Shown here: one piece after another, positions 1,455-21,398 of the stretch
Layout: every line of letters begins with the position of its first letter
Position numbering within the stretch: position 1 is the stretch's first letter
DNA from: Bacteroidota bacterium
GTDB taxonomy: Bacteria; Bacteroidota; Bacteroidia; B-17B0; Aurantibacillaceae
Length of the DNA: 51,606 nucleotides
Reading direction: 5' to 3'
Assembly: GCA_016185125.1 (NCBI GenBank)
Contig: JACPOC010000017.1
Coordinates: 117,219-168,824 of the forward strand
Program-made: the position numbers and the translations under genes
Notes under the pieces: model-generated
Told to the model about the DNA's origin: nothing
Databases searched by the model: none
What the model saw: the letters and a program-made list of their open reading frames with translations, nothing else

Positions 1455-2575
1455 AGTTTTTAACCATATTAGACAGATATATTTTAGGGAAGTTCTTAAA
1501 GACCTTTGCGTTTTCCATTACCTTAATATTGCTCATATTTATTGTGTTTGATATTAAGGATAAGATTCAAACATTTACCACGCAAAACATTCCTTTAAAA
1601 GAAATTATTTTCGATTATTATTTAATGTTCATTCCTTATTACGGAAATCAATTCAGCCCTATGTTTACGTTTATTGCGGTGGTATTCTTCACTTCAAAAA
1701 TGGCGCATCAAACCGAATTTGTAGCCATATTAAGCAGCGGCACAAGCTTTAGAAGAATTATGCGACCGTATGTTATGGGAGCTTTTATTATAGGATTTTC
1801 ATCATTGGTATTAAATCATTTTTTTCTTCCAAAAGCTTTTAAAATAAAAATTGCCTTCGAGGATAAATACATTAACAACGGTTATAACAGCGATGAACGA
1901 AACATTCATAAAAAAATAGGGCCCAACAGAATTCTTTATTTTGAGAGTTTTGACAATAAGATTAACACTGCTTATAAAGTAACGGTTGAAGATGTTGTAA
2001 ATGAAAAGCAGACTTATTTTTTAAGCGCTGATAACATGAAGTGGGACAGTTTAAATACGGAATGGCTTTTAACAAATGTAAACGAACGTAAGATTATTGA
2101 GCAGGATAGGCTGGATACTTTAAAGAATCAGAAACCGGTTTTTAAACAGATAAATACTTTTTCGCCCGACAAAAAAATGAAAATGAACTTTAGTCCTTTT
2201 GATATGCACCGCTTTGAAAGTAAGTATGAAGCCATGACTTATTTTGAATTGAAAGAATTTATTATTCGCGAAAGATTAAAAGGATCGGGAAGAATTGAAT
2301 TTTTTGAGGTTGAAAATTATAAGCGAAGTTCTTTTCCTTTTGCAACGTTTATTTTAACCATCATCGCAGTATGTGTTTCATCACGTAAGGTTAGGGGCGG
2401 AGTGGGCCTTCAAATTGCCATTGGCCTTTTACTAAGCTGTATTTACATTATGCTCATGTATATTTTTACCATTACGGCCACCAGTGGCATTGGTATTCCT
2501 TGGCTTGCTGTATGGACGCCCAACATAGTGTTTACTTTTGTAGCATTTTATTTTTATCGAAAGGCACAGAAATAA
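1451..2575 (+). CDS. LptF/LptG-family lipopolysaccharide export permease
   Basis: This is a YjgP/YjgQ-family inner-membrane permease of the Lpt system, which extracts lipopolysaccharide from the inner membrane together with the ATPase LptB. The 374-residue protein has three N-terminal membrane segments (about 15-35, 52-80, 103-125), a periplasmic domain and three C-terminal segments (about 295-311, 316-344, 348-370), the expected 3+3 topology. The opening LDRYILGKFLKTF is typical of the family. The GTG start overlaps the tgt stop (GTGA). From one gene I cannot say whether it acts as LptF or LptG; in this phylum the two are usually unlinked. Confidence 0.88.
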   Translation: MKFLTILDRYILGKFLKTFAFSITLILLIFIVFDIKDKIQTFTTQNIPLKEIIFDYYLMFIPYYGNQFSPMFTFIAVVFFTSKMAHQTEFVAILSSGTSFRRIMRPYVMGAFIIGFSSLVLNHFFLPKAFKIKIAFEDKYINNGYNSDERNIHKKIGPNRILYFESFDNKINTAYKVTVEDVVNEKQTYFLSADNMKWDSLNTEWLLTNVNERKIIEQDRLDTLKNQKPVFKQINTFSPDKKMKMNFSPFDMHRFESKYEAMTYFELKEFIIRERLKGSGRIEFFEVENYKRSSFPFATFILTIIAVCVSSRKVRGGVGLQIAIGLLLSCIYIMLMYIFTITATSGIGIPWLAVWTPNIVFTFVAFYFYRKAQK

Positions 2576-2591
2576 TGAGAGGCTTTAAACC

Positions 2592-2651
2592 GTCATTGCG
2601 ATCTTTTCGCGAAGCCCGTCCGAACGGATTTTCATCCGGGCGGGCAATCTC
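2592..2651. repeat. REP-like intergenic palindrome
   Basis: The element begins GTCATTGCGA and ends GGGCAATCTC and holds an imperfect GC-rich inverted repeat (CCCGTCCG against CGGGCGGG). It is much more GC-rich than its surroundings. The ends resemble the dispersed GTCATTGCGA...GCAATCTC repeats seen between genes in many Bacteroidota. It lies between the lptF/G-type gene and the GT-C gene. Confidence 0.55.
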
Positions 2652-2692
2652 TTTCACTATAGTAACGAAACTAATTAAATAACTAACGTTTA

Positions 2693-4207
2693 ATGAAAGA
2701 TTTAATTCAAACATTTAAAAATAAATATTCGCCGCTACAGCAAATTTTATTAATTGGATTGTTTGTGCGCTTACTTTCCGTTATTTTCAGTAAAGGCTTC
2801 GGTTGGCACGACGATCATTTCTTAATCATAGAGCCTGCACAAAGTTGGGTAGATGGTGAAGATGCTAATTACTGGCTTCCTTCCGCAACTGATCCTTCAC
2901 GCCAACCGCAAGGTCATCCTTTGGTTTATACCGGATTACATTATCTTATTCTTAGCTTTTTTAAAATCGTTGGCCTAAACAATCCGCAGGCAAAAATGTT
3001 TTTTATCCGTTTGCTGCATGCTCTTTGGTCTTTATTCATCATTAAATATTCCTATAAAATAACCGAGAAATTGCATAATGCTAAATCTGCGTGGTATGTA
3101 GGTTTATTTATGGCGCTCTATTGGTTCATGCCTTTTATGAGTGTGAGAAATTTAGTAGAATTTGTTTGTGTTCCGCTAATTCTTATTGGTATTTGGAATT
3201 TAATGAAAGAGGATAAAGCATTAAAGAATTTTATAATTGCCGGCATTCTTTTTGCTATTGCCATGGCTGTTCGTTACCAGGTTATATTTTTATTGGCGGG
3301 CATTGGTGTAGGAATGCTTATTAATAAAGATTCGTTTAAACAATGTGTTACACTTATTCTTTCATTTTTGTTTGTGTTTTTTTTAAGCGAAGGAGTACGC
3401 GATTATTTTTTATGGCACAAACCCTTTGCCGAATTTATGGCCTATATTCAATACAATTTGGATAACGCTACCGTTTACGGAACCGACAACTGGCACATGT
3501 ATTTTGATTTGGTGTTTGGTTTATTGGTTCCGCCCTTAAGTTTTTTGTTATTTGCAGGGTATTTTGTAAGCTGGAAAAAAACGTCTTTGCTCTTTTGGCC
3601 GGTGTTGTTCTATTTTGCTTTTCACACCTATTTTCCAAACAAACAGGAACGTTTTATTATGACGATACTTCCTCTAATAATTATTTGCGGAACAATAGGC
3701 ATGTTTATGATCTATGAAAAGAGAAAAGAAAAAATAAATCAAAAACTTTTTAAAGTATGTAAAACCTTTGTAATTGTATTGAATTTAATTTTACTGCCCG
3801 TTCTCACTTTATCTTACAGCAAAAGGCATAGGGTAGAGGCAATGACGTATTTGTATCATCAAAAAGATCATCAGGCTTTTATTGTGGAAGATAGCAATAA
3901 GGACAGCGAATTTTTAATTCCTCCCTTGTATTACTGCGGTAAATGGTTTTCGGTGTTAGGCGTTACAAAAGTTTTTACACCCGACAGTGTGTTGCGTTAT
4001 TTTAATAGGCAGGAAAAAAGTACACGCCCAAATTATGTTGTTTTTATGCAAGCTGAAAATTTAAATGCACGTGTAGATTCGATGAAGAAACGATTCCCAA
4101 GTTTAATTTACGAAACAACCATTGAGCCAAGTTTTATTGATAAAACTTTATTTTTTTTAAACCCTATGAATGATAATCAAACGGTTTTTATTTATAAGCT
4201 GAAATGA
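2693..4207 (+). CDS. GT-C (GT22-like) membrane mannosyltransferase
   Basis: This 504-residue integral membrane protein has about ten hydrophobic segments. Near the N terminus, in the first extracytoplasmic loop, is an acidic WHDDHFLIIEP motif (about residues 39-49), where GT22 lipid-linked-sugar mannosyltransferases carry HPDE-type catalytic acids. Around residue 310 a PNKQERFIM segment resembles the conserved K-E-x-R-F motif of PIG-B/ALG9-type enzymes. I infer a polyprenol-phosphate-sugar-dependent glycosyltransferase for an envelope glycan; acceptor and sugar are unknown. It is co-directional with tgt and the Lpt permease after a 117-bp gap that holds a palindromic repeat, and it ends 2 bp from the convergent PD40 gene. 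Confidence 0.75.
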   Translation: MKDLIQTFKNKYSPLQQILLIGLFVRLLSVIFSKGFGWHDDHFLIIEPAQSWVDGEDANYWLPSATDPSRQPQGHPLVYTGLHYLILSFFKIVGLNNPQAKMFFIRLLHALWSLFIIKYSYKITEKLHNAKSAWYVGLFMALYWFMPFMSVRNLVEFVCVPLILIGIWNLMKEDKALKNFIIAGILFAIAMAVRYQVIFLLAGIGVGMLINKDSFKQCVTLILSFLFVFFLSEGVRDYFLWHKPFAEFMAYIQYNLDNATVYGTDNWHMYFDLVFGLLVPPLSFLLFAGYFVSWKKTSLLFWPVLFYFAFHTYFPNKQERFIMTILPLIIICGTIGMFMIYEKRKEKINQKLFKVCKTFVIVLNLILLPVLTLSYSKRHRVEAMTYLYHQKDHQAFIVEDSNKDSEFLIPPLYYCGKWFSVLGVTKVFTPDSVLRYFNRQEKSTRPNYVVFMQAENLNARVDSMKKRFPSLIYETTIEPSFIDKTLFFLNPMNDNQTVFIYKLK

Positions 4208-17833: not shown

Positions 17834-17858
17834 CCTGCTTTTTGCGGGTTATTTTTTT
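17832..17858 (+). terminator. intrinsic terminator after the Fic gene
   Basis: AACCTGC (17832-17838) pairs with GCGGGTT (17844-17850) around a T5 loop, followed by a T-rich tract. It overlaps the end of the convergent M16 gene. Confidence 0.8.
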
Positions 17859-19132
17859 CCTACCACACATTCTATCAAATCTTTTTGCTGTAAATATTTG
17901 TTGGCAACCTCTCTAATTTGATGAGGGGTTACAGTTTGCACTGACTTAAAATAATTATCGAAATAGGAATAATCTAATCCAAATTCCCAAATGCCCTTGA
18001 ATTTATCAGAAAGCGCAAAAGGCCCGTCAACACTGCGAAGAAACTGGCCTAAAATATAATTTCTTACTGTTTCCAATTCTGAATCACTGACCAAATCATC
18101 ACGTAAAATTTTAATTTCTTTATATGTTTCATCTAGTGCCTGGGTGGTAACTTCGGCTCCCACTTCTGTTGAAATAAAAAAGTAACCTGTATTAACCAGC
18201 GACATTAAGCCGCTTCCAATACCATAAGTAAACCCTTTGTCTTCGCGGATGTTGGCCATTAGGCGTGAGCCAAAATAACCTCCCAAAATTGTATTTAAAA
18301 CCTGAAAGTGAAAATAATCAGGATGTGTTTTATTAAATAAAATTCTTCCCACACGAATAGCGCTTTGAATGGCATCTTCCCTTTCCAAAAAATGTACTTG
18401 CTGAGCAGTGGTTTGTAAAGGCACTTTGGTATTAAGGATTGGTTGCGGATTAACACCCCACTCTTTTTCACCAAAAAAACCGTTTAAAGTTTCCTGTAAG
18501 TTTTTTGGCAGATAGCCTGAAGCTACAATGGTGCAGTTTTTTGATTGATAAAATTTATTATAAAAATCCTGAATCTCTTTTAGATTAATGCGATCAAAAT
18601 CTTGTTCCTGCACATCAATGCCGTAAGGATGTTTTTCGCCAAACAACAGTTCTGAAAATTTTCGTCGGGCTATGACGCTTACTTTTTGTGAATTAATCTG
18701 ATGTTTTTGTTTTTTATTGGTTATTAAAATTCGAAGTTCCTCTTCTGAAAATACAGGATATTTAATTATCTCTTCAATAAATTTAAGGCTGTCGTTTAAA
18801 TATTTATTTAATGAAAATATTGTTATGCACGCATAATCTTGCCCCACACCTAATTCTATAAAGGATCCATAAAAATCAATTCCATCACTTATTTCATTGG
18901 CAGAAAAAGAACGGGTTCCGGTTTCTAAAAGCGAATTTGTGGCAGAGGCAATTAAAGGCGCAGGCTGATGATACATACCCGCTTTAAAGATGAATTCAAG
19001 TTTTATTAATTCCTGACTTCCGGCATTTATCGAAAAAACGTCAATACCGTTTTGCAATTTATTTTGCTCAGCTTTTATTACTTCTACTTTGCTTATGGTT
19101 TTAAATTGGGGCGCTAAGGCTCTGTTAATCAT
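17849..19132 (-). CDS. M16-family peptidase-like protein lacking the zinc motif
   Basis: A 427-residue M16B (pitrilysin/processing-peptidase) homologue. The fold features are present (LIKLEFIFKAGMYHQPAPL at the N terminus, then the glycine-rich LNTILGGYFGSRLMANIRED at about 270-290). Where active members carry HxxEH, it reads ATNSLLETGT, so zinc binding is lost. This is typical of the non-catalytic partner of a two-gene M16 pair; the catalytic gene is at 20157-21398. The HD-CoaD gene lies between them. Confidence 0.88.
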   Translation of the reverse strand: MINRALAPQFKTISKVEVIKAEQNKLQNGIDVFSINAGSQELIKLEFIFKAGMYHQPAPLIASATNSLLETGTRSFSANEISDGIDFYGSFIELGVGQDYACITIFSLNKYLNDSLKFIEEIIKYPVFSEEELRILITNKKQKHQINSQKVSVIARRKFSELLFGEKHPYGIDVQEQDFDRINLKEIQDFYNKFYQSKNCTIVASGYLPKNLQETLNGFFGEKEWGVNPQPILNTKVPLQTTAQQVHFLEREDAIQSAIRVGRILFNKTHPDYFHFQVLNTILGGYFGSRLMANIREDKGFTYGIGSGLMSLVNTGYFFISTEVGAEVTTQALDETYKEIKILRDDLVSDSELETVRNYILGQFLRSVDGPFALSDKFKGIWEFGLDYSYFDNYFKSVQTVTPHQIREVANKYLQQKDLIECVVGKK

Positions 19133-19206: not shown

Positions 19207-20160
19207 TTAATCCAGCAAATAACTTTGATGCTTATTGTGCTTTTCAAGAGTTCTTATCCCCGAAGAACTGATGTGCTCAAATTCTTTATCGCAAAAAATA
19301 TTTATAATGCGGATATCGGGCATTAACTCCTGAATGTAACGGTATTGATTTTGTTCGTATTGAAAATCGGTCGAATTCCTTAATCCTCTTACCACTACTA
19401 CTTGATAAGGCAACGAACTTATAAAGTCTGTAAGCAATCCTGTATATTCTTCCATCTGACGATTCTGGATAATTTTTGGAAGAGGCCAGGTTCGATCGTT
19501 TTTATCCGGATTTTTTCCGAATGCAATTATAACTTTATCAAATATTGATTCGGCTTTACAGAGTACATTGTAATGACCTTTGTGAAAAGGATTAAAACTT
19601 CCGCAGAAAACCCCAATGAGCGGCTTCCTTATTTTTACATACTCAATCAGCATGTTTAAATTGCCGTTTTTATTAAGGTTTTCAAGTACTTGAATCCGTT
19701 TTGATTTATAGATATTGTAATCTACAAATTGATATTCTTTAAAAATATTATTTTCAAATTCTATAAGTTCTGGCAGAGGTTTGTTTAAAATTGCAAGATC
19801 AGCATTAATTAATAACGTTGATTTTTCAGAGGTTGGAACATGATTTTTTGTACAAAGAATTAAATCCTGAATTTCTTTTGTTTGTTCTTTTGTGAGTGAA
19901 GAATTTTTTGCATGCTCAAGGAAAATTTGCGCGGACTGCTCTTCATTATCTTCTGCTTTTGGATGATAAATTGCATCGTGATAAACAGCCGCTAAAAATA
20001 ATTCATCATCGTTTTTTGCTGTTATTTCCAATTCAGAAATTACATCCAATAAATGTTTGGTGGTATGATAAAAACGATGCGTTTCATTATAACGTTCTAA
20101 AACTTTTAAAGGAAATTTAAGTTCCGTAAGTTTTTTAGCGATATAATTCAAATCTCTCAT
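19207..20160 (-). CDS. HD-domain/phosphopantetheine adenylyltransferase fusion
   Basis: The 317-residue protein joins two enzymes. Residues 1-175 match the COG4339 HD-superfamily hydrolases: FYHTTKHLLDV (30-40), the HD dyad at 61-62 in AAVYHDAIYHP, DNEEQSAQIF (71-80) and NADLAIL (119-125). Residues 180-317 are a CoaD domain: GSFNPFHKGHYNVL with the (T/H)xGH motif at 193-196, VVVRGLRNSTDFQYE (255-269) and the C-terminal ISSSGIR (297-303), which bind ATP and 4'-phosphopantetheine. The CoaD half should make dephospho-CoA; the HD substrate is unknown. ATG 20160 overlaps the M16 stop (ATGA), so it is translationally coupled. CoaE, the next CoA step, is encoded 5 kb away. Confidence 0.88.
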   Translation of the reverse strand: MRDLNYIAKKLTELKFPLKVLERYNETHRFYHTTKHLLDVISELEITAKNDDELFLAAVYHDAIYHPKAEDNEEQSAQIFLEHAKNSSLTKEQTKEIQDLILCTKNHVPTSEKSTLLINADLAILNKPLPELIEFENNIFKEYQFVDYNIYKSKRIQVLENLNKNGNLNMLIEYVKIRKPLIGVFCGSFNPFHKGHYNVLCKAESIFDKVIIAFGKNPDKNDRTWPLPKIIQNRQMEEYTGLLTDFISSLPYQVVVVRGLRNSTDFQYEQNQYRYIQELMPDIRIINIFCDKEFEHISSSGIRTLEKHNKHQSYLLD

Positions 20161-21398
20161 TTGCTTTTTGCCAGATAATATAATGTGCTGCAACTGTTTT
20201 CATTAAAAAGAAGGTTTGCCTGTTGTTTTACTTGCTCCGCGGTAACTTCGGTATAACGATCTATTTCCTGATTAATAAGATTTGCATCTCCCAATAATTC
20301 TGAAATTGCCAGATTGGTTGCTTTTGTAAGAACATCTGTTTCACTAAAAGTTAAAGTAGATTCAATTTTATTTTTACATTTTTGCAATTCAACCGGCGGC
20401 AAAATTTCATTTTTTAATTTATCAAGTTCTTCCATAACCGCTTTTTCGGCATCTTCCACCGAAACTCCGTCTGATAATTTTCCGCTCACTACAAATAAAC
20501 CTTTATCCAAATCGCCCATTACGTAAGCATTAATGTCGTTAAACAACTGCTTTTCCTTAATTAAAGTTTTATAAAGCCGTGAAGAATTCCCTCGACTTAA
20601 AATATCTGAGATTACATCAATTATATGATACTCTTTATCTCTTCGTGCGCACATTTTATAGGCTTTGTAAATTGCATTTGCAGGAACATCTCTTTCAACC
20701 GTTAGTTTTCGGGCTTCTGTTTGTTTGGGCTCCACAGGCAGTTTTCGCGCGGGTTTTTCAACTGCTTCAATTGATGCAAACCATTTTTCGCACAATTGTT
20801 TTACCTGCTCAGTATCTACATTTCCGGCAACAACCATTATGGCATTTCCGGGGTGATAATGCTTTTTAAAAAACGATCTTACATCATCCATCGTGGCATC
20901 TTCAATATGCTTAATTTCTTTGCCAATGGTAGCCCATTTATACGGGTGCGTGGTAAAAGCAAGCGGGCGAAGCAATAACCAAACATCTCCGTAAGGCTGG
21001 TTAAGATAACGTTGTTTAAATTCTTCAATTACAACACTGCGCTGTACATCCAAACTTTTATCGGTAAAAGCAAGACTCAGCATTCGGTCGCTCTCAAGCC
21101 AAAATGCGGTTTCCAGATTTTCTGCGGGAACTGTGCAATAATAATTGGTAATATCATTGGTGGTAAAAGCGTTATTTTCTCCCCCAACTAATTGCAACGG
21201 CTCGTCGTAATTAGGAATGTTCACACTTCCTCCAAACATTAAATGCTCAAACAGATGCGCAAATCCGGTTTTATTTTCGTCTTCATCGCGCGCGCCTACA
21301 TCGTATAAAATATTAAGGCAGGCCATGGGCGTACTTTTATCCTGATGAACAATAACGGTAAGATTATTTTTGAGTTTAAATTTTTCGTAGTGGATCAT
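20157..21398 (-). CDS. M16-family zinc metallopeptidase, catalytic
   Basis: The 413-residue protein keeps the inverted zinc motif HLFEH at residues 48-52 and a downstream acidic ligand region (SVVIEEFKQRYLNQPYGD, about 121-138), followed by the structural ILSRGNSSRLYKTLIKEK segment. It should be an active M16B peptidase that pairs with the inactive homologue at 17849-19132. There is no clear signal peptide, so either cytoplasmic action or non-classical export is possible. Translation is coupled to the HD-CoaD gene. Confidence 0.93.
   Translation of the reverse strand: MIHYEKFKLKNNLTVIVHQDKSTPMACLNILYDVGARDEDENKTGFAHLFEHLMFGGSVNIPNYDEPLQLVGGENNAFTTNDITNYYCTVPAENLETAFWLESDRMLSLAFTDKSLDVQRSVVIEEFKQRYLNQPYGDVWLLLRPLAFTTHPYKWATIGKEIKHIEDATMDDVRSFFKKHYHPGNAIMVVAGNVDTEQVKQLCEKWFASIEAVEKPARKLPVEPKQTEARKLTVERDVPANAIYKAYKMCARRDKEYHIIDVISDILSRGNSSRLYKTLIKEKQLFNDINAYVMGDLDKGLFVVSGKLSDGVSVEDAEKAVMEELDKLKNEILPPVELQKCKNKIESTLTFSETDVLTKATNLAISELLGDANLINQEIDRYTEVTAEQVKQQANLLFNENSCSTLYYLAKSK

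Follow-up and report, generated by a model that had tools for sequence, protein, structure and literature searches.

A predicted phosphopantetheine adenylyltransferase with a fused HD domain in Bacteroidota and its relatives in viral contigs

A gene encoding an HD domain fused in front of phosphopantetheine adenylyltransferase (PPAT, the product of coaD) is located in a 51,606-nucleotide stretch of a Bacteroidota genome of the order B-17B0 (assembly GCA_016185125.1, contig JACPOC010000017.1, positions 117,219 to 168,824), which is referred to here as the window. The fusion of the two halves is real, and the gene is the sole coaD candidate found in the genome. The explanation put forward, with confidence somewhat short of even, is that the protein is a bifunctional enzyme in which a PPAT of phage lineage has replaced the coaD of the host, and in which the HD half is a dispensable hydrolase for clean-up or proofreading. 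The parts of the gene in window coordinates are:

19207..20160, reverse strand: HD-CoaD fusion gene, 317 amino acids
19777..20160, reverse strand: catalytic part of the HD domain, residues 1-128, with R29, H32, H36, H61-D62, N72-E73, T104, H107 and D121
19624..19776, reverse strand: C-terminal helices of the HD domain (the tail), residues 129-179, retained in the bacterial short forms described below
19210..19623, reverse strand: CoaD (phosphopantetheine adenylyltransferase) domain, residues 180-317, with the motifs GSFNPFHKGH, NPDK, RGLRN..DFQYE and HISSSGIR

The open reading frame (ORF) is single and stop-free, with an ATG at position 20160 and a stop codon at 19207-19209, and the frame stays open further upstream to a TTG at 20193. 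The AlphaFold2 model of the whole 317-residue protein has a predicted local distance difference test score (pLDDT) of 91.4 and a predicted template modelling score (pTM) of 0.88. The protein aligns end to end with 27 other intact fusions that are 61-74% identical to it; these represent 27 of the 28 long loci, with L013 excluded for its stop codon. A genome that consists of one contig and is rated 100% complete (G001) carries the fusion in a 334-residue frame. By title, the 52 loci L003-L054 all come from metagenome-assembled genomes, which gives some room to a frameshift or misassembly that joins two genes. Such an artefact is extremely improbable and is rejected because of the 27 further fusions, the one-contig genome, and the fusions in viral sequences. 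The HD domain in front of CoaD that an earlier note had read from the DNA sequence is therefore confirmed, and the same architecture occurs in relatives from the order, in a family from another class, and in viral loci. The earlier note did not cover the relatives in viruses, the divergence of the CoaD lineage, or the finding that the HD head is repeatedly absent.

The N-terminal half is recognized as an HD domain because its motifs are shared with 20 HD proteins that lack a CoaD half, and because of its predicted fold. Residues Y24, R29, Y31, H32, H36, H61, D62, N72, E73, S76, T104, H107, D121, E142, and R155 are invariant in all 28 fusions. All 20 unfused proteins contain R29, H32, H36, H61, D62, N72, E73, S76, T104, D121, E142, and R155, and 18 of them contain H107. 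The metal site, which the earlier note had considered apparently complete, is complete and conserved, and none of the 28 fusions has lost R29, H32, H36, H61, D62, or D121. In the HD superfamily, phosphohydrolases are marked by an arginine that precedes the first histidine by three residues (PMC8177086); all 28 fusions have the H...HD...D metal motif with R29 three residues before H32. The same source (PMC8177086) describes two extra histidines between HD and D in YqeK, a diadenosine tetraphosphate (Ap4A) hydrolase, and between D62 and D121 of the fusions only H107 is invariant. Metal-dependent hydrolysis would be expected from knowledge of the family, and the HD half is very likely a phosphohydrolase of this type.

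The HD family is presumably COG4339. The HD half has no confident match in Pfam: at E ≤ 1, the protein from the window matches only PF01467, and does not match the AcpH family PF04336. A comparison of 14 HD sequences, six fused and eight unfused, has 17 invariant columns common to all, and five of the sequences touch PF01966 (HD), with a best E of 0.0045. An unfused HD query detects the HD half from the window with an E of 9.4e-14. The unfused family is present in 19 of 198 sampled genomes of the phylum and is matched by the PHROG family phrog_19425, named phosphohydrolase. The unfused proteins share the motif residues of the HD half; by contrast, they have about 30 extra C-terminal residues, and position 140 is R in all 20 of them and F or Y in four fusions. 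Nineteen of the 20 are encoded in frames of 206-275 residues. The remaining one occupies a 407-residue frame (L125, G247:C6), in which the HD domain is C-terminal and the N-terminal part is unrelated.

Modeled alone, the HD half has a pLDDT of 94.2 and a pTM of 0.88. The 50 structural matches listed for this model are all catalytic domains of phosphodiesterases (PDEs), the best being 5vp0_C with a Z-score of 13.9 and a root-mean-square deviation (rmsd) of 3.7 over 178 aligned residues. A Foldseek search places PDEs and HD hydrolases on top, none at E ≤ 0.001. Because mostly helical models can reach a Z-score of about 13 through a common arrangement of helices, the match supports the HD fold and indicates no function. 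The likeness to PDEs is a resemblance of fold, and no PDE family is among the Pfam matches. A sequence search for solved structures of the HD family returned only YedJ with an E of 0.019 and one chance-level match, and a search with a single sequence likewise gave one match at chance level. The HD half is constrained, though less than CoaD, because close pairs among the 20 least diverged have ratios of nonsynonymous to synonymous substitution rates (dN/dS) of about 0.07-0.13 in the HD half and 0.003-0.05 in CoaD.

Residues 180-317 match the pantetheine-phosphate adenylyltransferase model TIGR01510 with an E of 3e-23 and 82.5 bits (83.1 bits in the whole-genome search), which is below the curated cut-off of 103.3 bits. 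The CoaD half matches solved PPATs by sequence with a best E of 4.8e-13, and its model superimposes on E. coli PPAT 5jbn_B with a Z-score of 16.2 and an rmsd of 2.3 over 135 aligned residues. The alignment stops at residue 148 of the E. coli enzyme, the CoaD half being shorter at its C-terminus than classical CoaD. The PPAT signature residues H196, K220, R258, R261, D265, E269, and S299, whose functional roles we take to be those described for E. coli PPAT, are all present. Six of them (H196, K220, R261, D265, E269, and S299) show no variation among the 32 divergent bacterial and 24 classical sequences of the tree described below, and R258 is found in 29 of the 32 divergent sequences (K in three) and in all 24 classical ones. 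The fold and the signature are those of classical CoaD. By contrast, the CoaD half belongs to a divergent clade, scores below the TIGR01510 cut-off, is shorter, and is preceded by an HD half or its tail. Furthermore, its lineage has the motif PFHxGH, whereas 23 of the 24 classical sequences have T in place of the first H. The CoaD half probably has PPAT activity, as knowledge of the family would suggest, because its signature positions agree with those of classical CoaD and there is no other candidate in the genome.

A search of the genome, which is 99.9% complete, with TIGR01510 produced two matches: the fusion gene and a weak match at model positions 2-64 in a 199-residue frame, which appears to be of the NadD type. 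Thus, no second coaD, for which the earlier note had suggested a search, was found with this model. The TIGR01510 survey of 41 genomes comprised the genome of the window, 24 other members of the genus, and 16 class-level relatives. All 16 class-level relatives have a CoaD above the cut-off, whereas 22 of the 24 other members of the genus have a divergent CoaD below it. There was no TIGR01510 match in G005 (73% complete). In G008, which is from the same genus and 98% complete, searches with the protein from the window and with TIGR01510 found no CoaD, only a weak NadD-like match at positions 2-64 in a 214-residue frame. Genome G010 has a classical-type match above the cut-off in addition to its divergent form. 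A 420-residue frame of this genome (L105, G010:C67) contains a classical-type CoaD followed by an apparent dephospho-CoA kinase, whose P-loop was identified by eye; the locus could be a contamination of the bin.

In a tree of 103 CoaD sequences, the divergent bacterial and viral CoaDs are split from 24 classical bacterial ones (support 99/82). After the removal of 17 long-branch or unsure sequences, the resulting 86-row tree places the bacteria of the order in one clade (96/95), which is nested in three successive nodes that add only viral sequences (97/80, 95/82, and 95/92). Approximately unbiased (AU) tests, run after the trees had been inspected, reject the divergent bacteria as one clade (p 0.0037 with the genome G330, p 0.022 without it) and all viral sequences as one clade (p 0.019). 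The CoaD of the order is probably of phage lineage, because its clade nests among viral sequences and because of the AU rejections. The nesting, together with the classical outgroup, is read as transfer from phage to bacterium that would have occurred at least twice.

The HD half appears to be a dispensable accessory of the protein. In a search of 87 genomes of the order, with classes counted by reading the rows, 34 genomes have the long form (33 of them stop-free), 36 have a short form only, nine have a classical CoaD, and eight have no match. The short forms are frames of about 200 residues whose start lies inside the HD tail or shortly ahead of it; they are devoid of the H and HD motifs. 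The long-form gene of G010 (L106 / L013) contains one in-frame TAA between the metal part and the tail of the HD domain. The long and short forms occur together in G094 (99% complete), on different contigs (L107 and L108). Residues E136, F140, Q144, Y151, and R155 of the tail are invariant in all 43 sequences compared from the order (24 long and 19 short). Whether long or short, every one of the 52 loci L003-L054 has the same upstream gene.

The homology of the short tails to the HD domain runs through the tails of the fusions, because the profile of fused tails is strong and that of unfused HD proteins is weak. The former finds 22 of 26 short tails from the class and four of six from the other class at E ≤ 1e-3 (shuffled sequences, 1 of 3250), and the latter finds two of 32 at E ≤ 0.01 (shuffled sequences, 4 of 3250). 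A comparison of short tails with unfused HD proteins by hhalign gave no match. The long or short label changes nine times on an 89-row CoaD tree and eight times on a 54-row tree of CoaD combined with the upstream protein, and at least four changes are forced by well-supported branches in each of the two trees. The trees cannot separate gain from loss; repeated loss of the HD head appears to be the simpler reading, because the short forms keep a tail homologous to that of the HD domain. Recombination between long and short alleles would give the same pattern. Dispensability of the HD half is supported by the 36 of 87 genomes with short forms only, together with the forced changes. Those 36 genomes have just CoaD preceded by the HD tail, so CoA synthesis cannot depend on the HD half for an obligatory step.

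Survival of the lost heads as separate genes is rejected, since none of the 36 short-only genomes has a match at the strength of the fusions (E below 1e-50). Four of them (G016, G017, G070, and G073) have a distant HD match, and the three inspected were judged by eye to belong to another HD family. Five gaps upstream of short genes (L033, L035, L037, L040, and L045), two of which are tiny, contain no HD remnants.

AcpH is a non-canonical HD protein, and its family PF04336 occurs in 72 of the 87 genomes of the order. It is present in all 34 long-form genomes, including that of the window, where it is encoded by a separate gene, and in 27 of the 36 short-only genomes; the genomes are related and not independent, and four of the nine short-form absences belong to one genus (g19). 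This distribution could link the HD half to the turnover of phosphopantetheine. The HD half would then control the supply of this compound by freeing it from the holo form of acyl carrier protein or from CoA, or by dephosphorylating it or its oxidized forms, and the fused CoaD would recycle it or be throttled. The HD half is indeed fused to the enzyme that uses phosphopantetheine, and there are known hydrolases of carrier-protein phosphopantetheine, namely PptH and AcpH (PMC8557913), as well as PANK4/DUF89. Such control of supply is nevertheless unlikely, because a stand-in for AcpH should alternate with the HD half, yet PF04336 accompanies every long form. Replacement of AcpH by the HD half is unlikely for the same reason.

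The fusion is also present in one family (f37) of another class of the phylum, with four long forms (G125, G269, G596, and G599) and six short forms (G376, G385, G504, G608, G613, and G616) among the 99 genomes of that order. The genes of G125 and G376 have ordinary bacterial neighbors, for example TrkA, a tail-specific protease, thiolase, and RNase Y. The genome G330 (f59) has a long form in addition to a classical CoaD. Its long form may represent a phage contig in the bin, because its CoaD groups with a viral sequence (100/98) and the neighborhood is uninformative. Among plasmid records, 53 have a match, and none of the matches listed covers 80% of the query.

The viral search, which combined tblastn against phages with a scan of IMG/VR, identified 56 viral loci, some of which are near-identical. 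HD and CoaD are encoded in one frame in 16 of the 56 and in two frames in L255, and the remainder contain the CoaD part only. In a profile alignment, 14 of the 16 viral fusions have H32, H36, H61, D62, and D121; L243 has lost H61, D121, and the CoaD motifs, and L259 is misaligned in the profile table, with motifs visible by eye. Phage-like neighbors include a gp32-type single-strand binding protein and ribonucleotide reductase (L216), a phage NAD-dependent ligase (L220), and NAMPT (L224). The viral label of L215, L217, L218, and L219 rests on IMG/VR, because their flanks are little informative: those of L218 and L219 match a phage family and a sigma factor, that of L215 gives a short match, and that of L217 none.

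Additional arrangements are found in LR records, which we take to stem from a survey of huge phages. LR745206 and LR756502 encode HD and CoaD as separate genes. LR756504 contains the HD protein and has no CoaD match at E ≤ 1e-3. In LR756501 (L210, LR756501.1, frame from about 3908), an intact HD domain is fused to a decayed CoaD without the GxFxPxHxGH, RGLR, and ISSS motifs, and a separate CoaD is located elsewhere in the same record (L273); LR756503 has the same matches at match level. The 462-kb phage record LR756500 encodes a protein of the opposite order, with CoaD first and HD second:

LR756500.1 33088-38501, reversed; ORF at 2492-3649: reversed-order fusion (L274), 388-residue frame

The opposite-order fusion, together with the co-occurrence of the separate genes in LR745206 and in LR756502, argues for a functional connection between the two activities, irrespective of what the HD half acts on.

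The retention of the tail in the 19 short sequences from the order, and its recognizable presence in the six short forms of the other class, could mean that the HD half now mainly has a structural or regulatory function for CoaD, by binding a nucleotide or aiding oligomerization, and is no hydrolase in vivo. The early end of the CoaD half relative to classical CoaD is also in favor of this possibility. It is quite improbable, because the metal and active-site residues are invariant in the intact fusions, and E142, which the long and unfused forms always have, is replaced by L, Q, L, and R in the four short forms compared. Furthermore, CoaD-only viral proteins, many of about 141-170 residues, have no HD tail, which indicates that a CoaD of this lineage does not need one, and the phage copy with the decayed CoaD has kept its HD domain, apparently for the sake of the domain itself.

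The viral neighborhoods point in another direction. The CoaD-only loci L222 and L225-L233, two pairs of which look near-duplicate, are accompanied by ribose-phosphate pyrophosphokinase (10 of 10), a tRNA-His guanylyltransferase-like protein (9 of 10), and Sir2 (8 of 10). Of the 65 viral and phage loci, some on near-identical contigs, ten contain relatives of Sir2 and ten contain ribose-phosphate pyrophosphokinase; NAMPT is encoded near L224 and L227, and in LR745206 and LR756502 a Sir2 gene is located no more than about 1.3 kb from the separate HD gene. Because of these neighbors, it is conceivable that phages use the HD half, and perhaps also their CoaD-like protein, in a programme of NAD or nucleotide-signal metabolism, for salvage or counter-defense, and that bacteria took over the module for its CoaD activity only, hence the frequent absence of the head. 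This possibility is considered unlikely, since viral CoaD keeps the positions of the PPAT signature (in 15 fused and 31 CoaD-only sequences) and the HD residues of the bacteria are invariant in the 28 intact fusions. In addition, all six viral CoaD proteins scanned match TIGR01510 best, ahead of models of nicotinamide mononucleotide (NMN) adenylyltransferase.

In the favored explanation of a bifunctional enzyme, the C-terminal half would be the PPAT of the cell, from a lineage whose members in this analysis come mostly from viral contigs, and would have replaced the classical coaD in most of the order. The N-terminal half would work beside it as a metal-dependent HD phosphohydrolase that the cell can dispense with. 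Most likely, it would split nucleotide products and intermediates of adenylyl transfer that are wrong or damaged, such as dephospho-CoA analogues derived from other nucleotides, or stray adenylylated compounds. The substrate and the proofreading role are proposed by analogy to NadD-YqeK (JCVISYN3A_0380), the HD domain of which splits nicotinic acid adenine dinucleotide (NaAD) and wrong analogues; a strain with the HD domain inactivated has no growth defect, as stated in the available text of PMC9426524. In both proteins, an HD phosphohydrolase is fused to an HxGH cofactor adenylyltransferase, and the tolerated inactivation matches the conserved but expendable head described here. NadD-YqeK differs in its adenylyltransferase (NadD), its HD family (YqeK), and the order of its domains. 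YqeK is presumably located behind NadD, as implied by the number of the mutated residue, 230. The idea of the earlier note that the HD part might regulate or proofread CoA synthesis is partly supported: proofreading has this published parallel, and a functional link between the two domains is strengthened by the reversed fusion and the phage gene pairs, although the HD half is no obligatory step.

A broader and still more tentative possibility is that HD and CoaD form a two-enzyme CoA module of phages, in which HD would check the product of viral CoaD. At least two lineages of one phylum would have independently replaced their coaD with it, the head would have been repeatedly discarded while the tail helices were kept in front of CoaD, and the opposite-order fusion would be an independent invention.

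Several observations weigh against the favored explanation. The short-only genomes (36) outnumber those with the long form (34). In more distant pairs, the HD half reaches dN/dS values of 0.3-0.5, where dS is close to saturation; in close pairs, CoaD is under much stronger constraint than the HD half. In the 103-row tree, the viral sequence L239 lies inside the clade of the order, joined to the long bacterial branch L104. The tree is based on 147 columns and has many unsupported forks, including the base of the divergent clade, and transfer in the other direction is conceivable. In sequence, the HD half does not resemble YqeK, and there is no YqeK model among its 23 NCBIfam matches. Finally, the proximity of the CoaD-only viral relatives to genes for Sir2 and the pyrophosphokinase hints at NAD rather than CoA.

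The combination is a variant of a known arrangement, an HD hydrolase fused to an adenylyltransferase, and its CoaD version appears to be new. A literature search, outside the coverage of which were most subscription papers, found no description of an HD-CoaD fusion and no paper on COG4339. The archaeal bifunctional PPAT/nucleoside triphosphate phosphatase (NF002250) resembles the fusion in joining, by name, a PPAT to a phosphatase; by contrast, its NCBIfam match is weak and limited to the adenylyltransferase part. The occurrence of coaD as an auxiliary gene in phage genomes is described in PMC11097641 and PMC8093824, in the available parts of which an HD partner is not mentioned.

If the favored explanation is correct, an essential gene of central metabolism has been replaced by a copy of phage lineage in most of a bacterial order; to our knowledge, few such replacements of essential genes have been described. 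With long and short forms occurring naturally at a single conserved locus, the same CoaD can readily be compared with and without the HD head. A proofreading role of the HD half would make metabolite proofreading by fusions of HD domains with adenylyltransferases, represented so far by NadD-YqeK, a recurring principle. The explanation would also provide the first functional lead for an HD family for which no confident Pfam match or close solved structure was found, and may account for the presence of this family in huge phages.

Both genes that flank the fusion in the window have the same orientation:

20157..21398, reverse strand: upstream neighbor with an HxxEH motif, the 3' end of which overlaps the ATG of the fusion gene
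17849..19132, reverse strand: downstream neighbor

We take the upstream neighbor to be an M16-type peptidase because of its HxxEH motif, and the downstream one is presumably a second M16-like protein. In two of the short-form loci, a similar small ORF separates the short coaD from the upstream gene (5491-5966 in L033 and 5511-5973 in L040); it is presumably GxxExxY-like.
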